Position numbers and translations under genes: made by a program. A model generated the notes under the pieces. It was not told the DNA's origin, searched no databases, and saw only the letters and a list, made by a program, of their open reading frames with translations. A stretch of DNA of 64,000 bases from Metallosphaera hakonensis JCM 8857 = DSM 7519. GTDB taxonomy: Archaea > Thermoproteota > Thermoprotei_A > Sulfolobales > Sulfolobaceae. The DNA lies in the NCBI RefSeq assembly GCF_003201675.2, contig NZ_CP029287.2, positions 1,426,001 to 1,490,000 on the forward strand, written 5' to 3'. Positions 22,215 to 42,103 of the stretch are shown here, piece after piece. Position 1 is the first letter of the stretch. Each line of letters starts with the position of its first letter.

Positions 22215-22311
<97 letters not shown>

Positions 22312-40301: not shown

Positions 40302-41048
40302 ATGGATGAAGAACTCTTAGATGACCTTTTAGCCAGGGTAAGTAAGTTTGCCTCAGTCTTAGGTATATCTAGAAGTGAACTCAAAATTTACTCTACGCTC
40401 CTTTTAGAGGGACAAAGTAGTGCCAGAGATCTATCAAAGAAACTGAACATCTCTTATACAAAAATATACTCGATTTTAAACAGACTAGAGGATAGAGGAT
40501 GGATTAGAAAGGTAGGTCGTAGACCAGTAAGTTACGAGGCAATATCCCTTAGGGATTTATGGTCAAATGTAAAGAAAATGCTTGAGATAAGGGTTTCTCA
40601 GCTGGAAAAGGAATTCATAGAACCTTTATCATCAATGATAGATTCTGCTTCCGCCTATACTGTCACGGTCGTTCCACCAAGCAGTCTAAAGAGGACCCTA
40701 ATTGACGTATTAAATGAACCAAGCAAGAAATATCTCATTGCCATATCATTTCCCGAACTTCTTGATGAGGAGATTTATCAGTTAATTCATAGTAGGACGT
40801 TCACCTCTGAGGTCAAAGTGATTGTTCAAAAGGGGATAAAGGTTCCAGAGAACCCGTCTATAGAACTTAAAGTTCTTGATAACATGTTTGGAAGTGGAAT
40901 CGTAACCTCTTCCTCTGTATTACTAGTGATCAAGTCACATGAGAGTTTATCTAGCATTATCTCCAGTCATAGGTACTTAGTAGACATAGCGCAAGTGTAC
41001 TTTAATCATCTTTGGCAACAGGCCCTAAGTATAGGCACAAATCCTTAA
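40302..41048 (+). CDS. TrmB-like winged-helix transcriptional regulator
   Basis: A 248-residue regulator with an N-terminal TrmB-type winged helix: SRSELKIYSTLLLEGQSSARDLSKKLNISYTKIYSILNRLEDRGWI. A coiled-coil-like linker and a C-terminal ligand-binding-like region (TVTVVPPSSLKRTLIDVL, KVIVQKGIKV) follow. Archaeal TrmB proteins bind sugars or other metabolites; the ligand here is unknown. It is followed by a small ribbon-helix-helix gene, giving two regulators in a row. Confidence 0.82.
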   Translation: MDEELLDDLLARVSKFASVLGISRSELKIYSTLLLEGQSSARDLSKKLNISYTKIYSILNRLEDRGWIRKVGRRPVSYEAISLRDLWSNVKKMLEIRVSQLEKEFIEPLSSMIDSASAYTVTVVPPSSLKRTLIDVLNEPSKKYLIAISFPELLDEEIYQLIHSRTFTSEVKVIVQKGIKVPENPSIELKVLDNMFGSGIVTSSSVLLVIKSHESLSSIISSHRYLVDIAQVYFNHLWQQALSIGTNP

Positions 41049-41084
41049 AAGAATACATAAGGCTATCATCTATATCGAGGTTGC

Positions 41085-41234
41085 ATGAAAATAATAACAG
41101 TGAAACTACCCGAGCAGTTTCTAGAAGCGATGGACGAGTTAGTTAATACTGGTAGATACGAAACTCGGAGCGAGGTAATTAGGGCAGCAATAGGGGACTT
41201 TATTAGAAAGGAACTCTGGATTAAAGATCAATGA
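41085..41234 (+). CDS. Small ribbon-helix-helix (CopG-type) DNA-binding protein
   Basis: A 49-residue protein beginning [19 protein letters not shown], followed by a turn GRYETRSE and the helix [15 protein letters not shown] beta-strand with alternating residues, then two helices with the conserved SEVIRxA, is the MetJ/Arc/CopG fold. It would dimerise and bind an operator. It lies 36 bp after the TrmB-like gene. Its stop codon lies within the C box of a box C/D RNA that starts at 41229. Confidence 0.85.
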
Positions 41235-41281
41235 TGAAGGCTGGTATTAATGAGCGATGAATTGAGACACCAATTCTGAAG
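41229..41281 (+). ncRNA. Box C/D guide RNA overlapping the ribbon-helix-helix stop codon
   Basis: Order: C box ATGATGA (41231-41237), guide AGGCTGGTATTA, D' box ATGA (41250-41253), one spacer base, C' box CGATGA (41255-41260), guide ATTGAGACACCAATT, D box CTGA (41276-41279). The D' guide pairs with 11 nt TAATACCAGCC of the archaeal 16S rRNA 530 loop. The D'+5 rule predicts 2'-O-methylation of the A equivalent to E. coli A535. The target of the second guide was not identified. The D' box is a variant (ATGA instead of CTGA). The stop codon TGA of the upstream gene is inside the C box. Confidence 0.8.
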
Positions 41282-41317
41282 ACAAGATTTTTTACGTGTG
41301 ATATCCCGTTAAGAAGC

Positions 41318-42103
41318 GTGGTCTTAAGAGAAGGAGATTTAGCTGTAGTCTGGATTGATCCACGAAGAGTATATCTTGTTAAGCTAACTCCAGGAAAAAA
41401 GTTGGATACAGACAAAGGTTCTCTATCCTTCGACGATGTGATTGGCAAAGAATACGGTGATGCAATAGAGATAAGTAAAGGTAGAGCATTTATAATGTAT
41501 CCTTATCTAGATTACATATATGATGGTCTTCATCGGCCCTCTCAGGTTCTCTATCCTAAAGACATTGGTTACATGATATTCAAATCTGGATTACGGCCAG
41601 GTTCAGTTGTAGTGGAGGCTGGTACGGGATCCGGTTTCCTTACAATTTCGCTGGCTCATTTCTTAGGGGAGTCAGGGAAAGTAATAACCTATGACATACG
41701 GGATGATATGCAAGAAAGGGCAAAGAGAAACGTGGAACTGGTCGGTTTGTCAGATAGGGTAGTCTTCAAGAAAGGAGACGTAAGAGAAAGAATAGAGGAG
41801 GAGAACATAGACTCTGTCTTTTTGGACATGCCTGACCCTTGGCTAGTTGCAGAGAACGCATATAGAATATTGAAACCCGCGGGCACTATAGTGGTTTTCG
41901 TTCCTACAGTGGATCAGGTAGAAAAGACTTTTCTTTCGTTAAAGAAATGCAGGTTCATAGATATTGAGGCGGTAGAGTTACTACTGAGGGAGTACCAAGT
42001 TAAAGAGAACGCCACCAGACCAAGAAGTATTGGTGTTACACATACTGGTTATGTGATTACAGGCAGAAAATCCATAAAAGGGAGTTCTGAAATAAGTGAA
42101 TGA
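41318..42103 (+). CDS. trmI: tRNA (adenine-N1)-methyltransferase TrmI
   Basis: The archaeal enzyme that methylates A57/A58 in the T loop (261 residues). The N-terminal small beta domain is followed by the Rossmann fold with motif [31 protein letters not shown], and the catalytic-region DMPDPWL. The GTG 41318 start lies 37 bp after the guide RNA. The ATPase subunit genes follow at 6 bp. Confidence 0.93.

Follow-up and report, generated by a model that had tools for sequence, protein, structure and literature searches.

Dennis et al. (2015; PMC4644070) describe the sRNAs Sac sR115, Tte sR114, Pca sR28 and Iho sR21, each detected by RNA-seq in its own species, as targeting A512 of 16S rRNA (A535 in E. 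coli) by their D' guides, and three of them as targeting G491 by their D guides; counterparts to S. acidocaldarius sR115 are named in that paper from Thermoproteus, Pyrobaculum and Ignicoccus. The literature emphasizes that guide sequences change fast; the same paper proposes a chaperone action for double guides and leaves undecided if common ancestry or convergence accounts for the A535/G514 guides found in different orders. The text to its Fig. 3b equates G491 with E. coli G515; the offset given by its A512 = A535, together with the sequence analysed here, makes G491 equivalent to G514, which is the numbering used below. For the 30S subunit of S. solfataricus, one account lists 25 mapped modifications (PMC11698992). 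A quarter (25%) of archaeal C/D sRNA genes overlap the 3' end of an open reading frame, and almost half of these 3'-overlapping genes have their stop codon within the C box (Breuer et al. 2021, PMC7994747).

The locus considered here lies in a 64-kb stretch of Metallosphaera DNA, the whole of which is referred to as the window, and comprises the following features:

41045-41050, plus strand: putative TATA element TTAAAA within AAATCCTTAAAAG, nearly unchanged in six Metallosphaera genomes
41085-41234, plus strand: gene for a ribbon-helix-helix (RHH, CopG-type) protein of 49 aa (PF01402, E=1.1e-6), with the stop codon TGA at 41232-41234
41231-41279, plus strand: complete box C/D sRNA, box order C-D'-C'-D as read from the sequence
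41231-41237, plus strand: C box ATGATGA, its TGATGA unchanged in 18/18 aligned relatives
41238-41249, plus strand: D' guide AGGCTGGTATTA, 12 nt, pairing 11/11 with 16S rRNA and covarying with it
41250-41253, plus strand: D' box ATGA, which reads CTGA in several relatives
41254-41260, plus strand: C' box GCGATGA, its TGA unchanged in 18/18 relatives
41261-41275, plus strand: D guide ATTGAGACACCAATT, with the core GACACCA at 41266-41272
41276-41279, plus strand: D box CTGA, unchanged in 18/18 relatives
41288-41293, plus strand: T6 run, a likely archaeal terminator, AAGATTTTTTA being invariant in six Metallosphaera genomes
41318-42103, plus strand: trmI/GCD14-type tRNA m1A methyltransferase gene from its predicted start (PF08704, E=3e-33; PF14801)

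A sequence-only reading had placed a box C/D guide RNA at 41229-41281, which corresponds to the sRNA at 41231-41279 plus two flanking bases on either side, and the order and spacing of the C, D', C' and D boxes that it gave were confirmed directly in the sequence. An RUGAUGA-type C box and a CUGA D box stand near the ends of an RNA of about 50 nt, with the internal boxes completing the order C-D'-C'-D, guides of about 12 nt, and an rRNA-complementary guide beside D/D' that forms a Watson-Crick pair at N+5, as in archaeal box C/D sRNAs. Scanning both strands of the 64-kb window for this architecture returned exactly one site, the sRNA itself, and none was found among 200 windows simulated with an order-1 Markov model. 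Folded in silico, the sRNA showed no structure above chance (z -0.9), as expected of an RNA held by kink-turns. The stretch 41231-41279 is a genuine box C/D sRNA gene, with guidance of methylation as its predicted activity. Elsewhere in the window, a tRNA match of 97 bases at 22215-22311 on the minus strand exceeds the usual length; this tRNA probably carries an intron.

Targets were read in the 16S rRNA of a relative of the same genus (G004) and of about 80 others. For numbering, GUGYCAGCMGCCGCGGUAA was used as anchor, which we take to be E. coli 16S 515-533. The helix 18 sequence of most relatives is CUGGUGUCAGCCGCCGCGGUAAUACCAGCC, and in nearly all the target segment reads TAATACCAGCC or TAATACCAGCT. 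The D' guide (41239-41249) forms 11 of 11 possible Watson-Crick pairs with UAAUACCAGCC in the 16S rRNA of relative G018 (positions 531-541 in E. coli numbering), which places A535 at N+5, opposite T41245. The core of the D guide, GACACCA, pairs with UGGUGUC in a relative's 16S (513-519 in E. coli numbering), placing G514 at N+5, opposite C41271. From these pairings, the sRNA is predicted to be a double guide, for A535 via D' and for G514 via D. Helix 18 is formed by the pairing of these two target segments with each other, so that one sRNA would capture both of its strands. Since the D guide of the Metallosphaera copy makes only seven contiguous pairs, adjoined by a mismatch, G514 is a less certain predicted methylation site than A535. 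At two loci (L016 and L018, in genomes G006 and G015), the D' guide is GGGCTGGTAATC; its mismatches to 16S at positions 533 and 531 may make the targeting of A535 weaker in the two genera concerned.

An alignment from 18 genomes showed invariant box cores and, for the guides, a nearly invariant core GCUGGUA and an invariant core GACA.CA, unlike the spacer between D' and C', which is variable. A sequence profile built from the same 18 genomes matched 164 of 229 genomes of the class (107 of the 122 good ones), almost always in a single copy per genome, and in the wider phylum it matched 176 of 398 sampled genomes at E<=1e-4. A pattern scan of named genomes was discarded as too unspecific, its matches being mostly chance ones in bacteria. 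Covariation was assessed in 62 genomes in which both the sRNA and helix 18 could be read. At 534, U is matched by A in 61/61 genomes and the single C534, in the 16S rRNA of G224, is met by a guide G (1/1). At 513, U pairs with A in 56/58 (the remainder G-U), and C with a D-guide G in 4/4 genomes, all of one genus. At 541, the guide has A opposite U in 6/6 genomes and opposite C in 15/56 (Fisher P 0.0009, kinship ignored). Guide and 16S rRNA thus covary at two or three positions, the covariation at 534 and 513 resting on few events.

The sequence-only reading aimed the guide at A535 in the 530 loop, and this is supported by the box anatomy, the 11-bp duplex, class-wide conservation, guide/target covariation and the published S. 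acidocaldarius RNA with the same targets (PMC4644070); its account was incomplete in that it missed the D guide with G514, the published precedent and the linkage to trmI.

Upstream, the RHH gene ends in a stop codon (TGA, 41232-41234) that lies within the C box, as had been noted at the outset. Among 17 Sulfolobaceae loci with an RHH gene, the C box contains the whole stop codon in seven, has one base in common with it in four and follows it in six. As the stop shifts in this way among relatives, the overlap looks incidental rather than selected. A selected competition between the mRNA end and the guide RNA for the same bases is left unsupported by these positions and by the reporter effect of 3'-overlapping sRNA genes, which is neutral or slightly negative (Breuer et al. 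2021, PMC7994747); a regulatory role for the overlap was dropped on account of the varying stop position. The RHH protein itself, of about 48-50 aa, is strongly kept in Sulfolobaceae, where its identity is 72-100%. The kept AAATCCTTAAAAG ahead of the RHH gene and the kept AAGATTTTTTA after the D box are consistent with a single RHH-sRNA transcript, and the two genes probably share one. A scan for sigma-70 promoters and terminators carries no meaning for archaea.

The order RHH - sRNA - trmI was found in 30 of 31 Sulfolobaceae loci. Of 55 sampled genera, at least 32 have trmI downstream of the sRNA and on its strand, several families outside Sulfolobaceae included, and at least 19 have an RHH relative upstream of the sRNA; both counts are lower bounds, as many loci comprised only 1 kb and six could not be placed by pattern. 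The trmI match mostly starts 40-130 nt from the guide RNA. In families f25, f34 and f38 the sRNA is kept, and no trmI match was found nearby. That sRNA and trmI form an ancient functional unit, in which a shared transcript, or an sRNP in the trmI leader, would couple rRNA and tRNA modification across Thermoproteota, we consider doubtful.

A near-universal single-copy family, covariation with the target and an often shared neighbour together favour descent, at least within the class, and the sRNA seems to be a single, very ancient gene that most genomes of the class contain.

Taken with the observed anatomy, conservation, covariation and gene order, the sequence suggests the following course of transcription, processing, methylation and chaperoning. 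One transcript, begun at the RHH promoter, would probably carry both the short RHH gene and the sRNA and would stop at the T6 terminator. L7Ae, Nop5 and fibrillarin would form a particle on the C/D and C'/D' motifs, around which the sRNA would be cut back to some 50 nt. Its two guides would bind both strands of helix 18 (530 loop) in nascent 16S rRNA, a part of the ribosome's decoding centre. Guided by D', fibrillarin would place a 2'-O-methyl group on A535 and, guided by D, probably another on G514, and with both strands held at once, helix 18 pairing would be delayed until methylation was done. This reading as a whole, an sR115-like sRNA probably co-transcribed with the RHH gene, trimmed, predicted to guide methylation of A535 and probably of G514, and a would-be chaperone of helix 18, we regard with high confidence.

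A narrower account would have the D' guide alone in use, at A535, with the D guide degenerate or orphaned in Metallosphaera. The mere seven contiguous pairs fit such a loss, and other 16S sites score almost equally for this guide by pair count; yet its core is kept in relatives as GACACCA or GACATCA, C stands opposite G514 in 62/62 genomes, the change from A to G matches U513C in the four genomes mentioned above, and in most family members the pairing reaches C512 (CACCAG). Restriction to A535 seems unlikely, if worth keeping in mind. Far less probable is a mainly cis-acting element, a C/D k-turn at the RHH stop or before trmI that regulates these mRNAs via L7Ae. For it speak the C box overlapping the RHH stop, the old linkage to trmI and the precedent of archaeal L7Ae, which controls its own mRNA by a k-turn (PMC5539422). 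Against it, the guides are conserved and track the rRNA, beyond what k-turn boxes alone would call for, the RHH stop moves relative to the C box, and the sRNA is kept where neither an RHH nor a trmI neighbour was found.

That a coding gene happens to end in box-like sequence by chance is barely conceivable. In its favour, the C and D boxes are short motifs with a stop-like TGA; but none of the 200 simulated windows had such an architecture, conservation continues past the RHH stop and is also seen in genomes where no RHH gene is adjacent, and both guide conservation and covariation speak against it.

In Rfam, no family reached its cut-off for the Metallosphaera sRNA or for members from six other genomes, which points to a family missing from Rfam, not to a missing RNA. 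A permissive search returned weak matches only, to archaeal sR families (sR1, sR20, sR38, sR5) and eukaryotic SNORD families; sR1 (RF01152) scored 16 bits against a gathering score of 45. These were taken as box resemblance and not as family identity, the four sR families having similar box motifs, different guides and scores far under the gathering score. The sR115 group, as described (PMC4644070), agrees with the Metallosphaera sRNA in being a double guide for helix 18, with the D' guide directed at A512/A535 and the D guide at G491, whose equivalent is paired here. The likeness to sR115 lies in the targets described, and the Metallosphaera sRNA is most likely the ortholog of S. acidocaldarius sR115. 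Descent from a common source with sR115, sR114, sR28 and sR21 may be argued from the single-copy matches across the phylum and the trmI linkage, against the lack of a trmI match beside the sRNA in families f25, f34 and f38. The 3'-overlapping C/D genes of Tripp et al. (2017), as reported in PMC7994747, likewise place their stop codon within the C box and show no substantive difference, and as there, expression is probably borrowed from the promoter of the upstream gene. Kind of RNA, targets and type of overlap are thus already known, and the RNA belongs, as an unremarkable case, to a class that has been studied well and for which its targets are published. New here are the depth of the family, with evidence for common descent that includes the trmI neighbour in at least 32 of 55 genera, and a usable profile for a family absent from Rfam.
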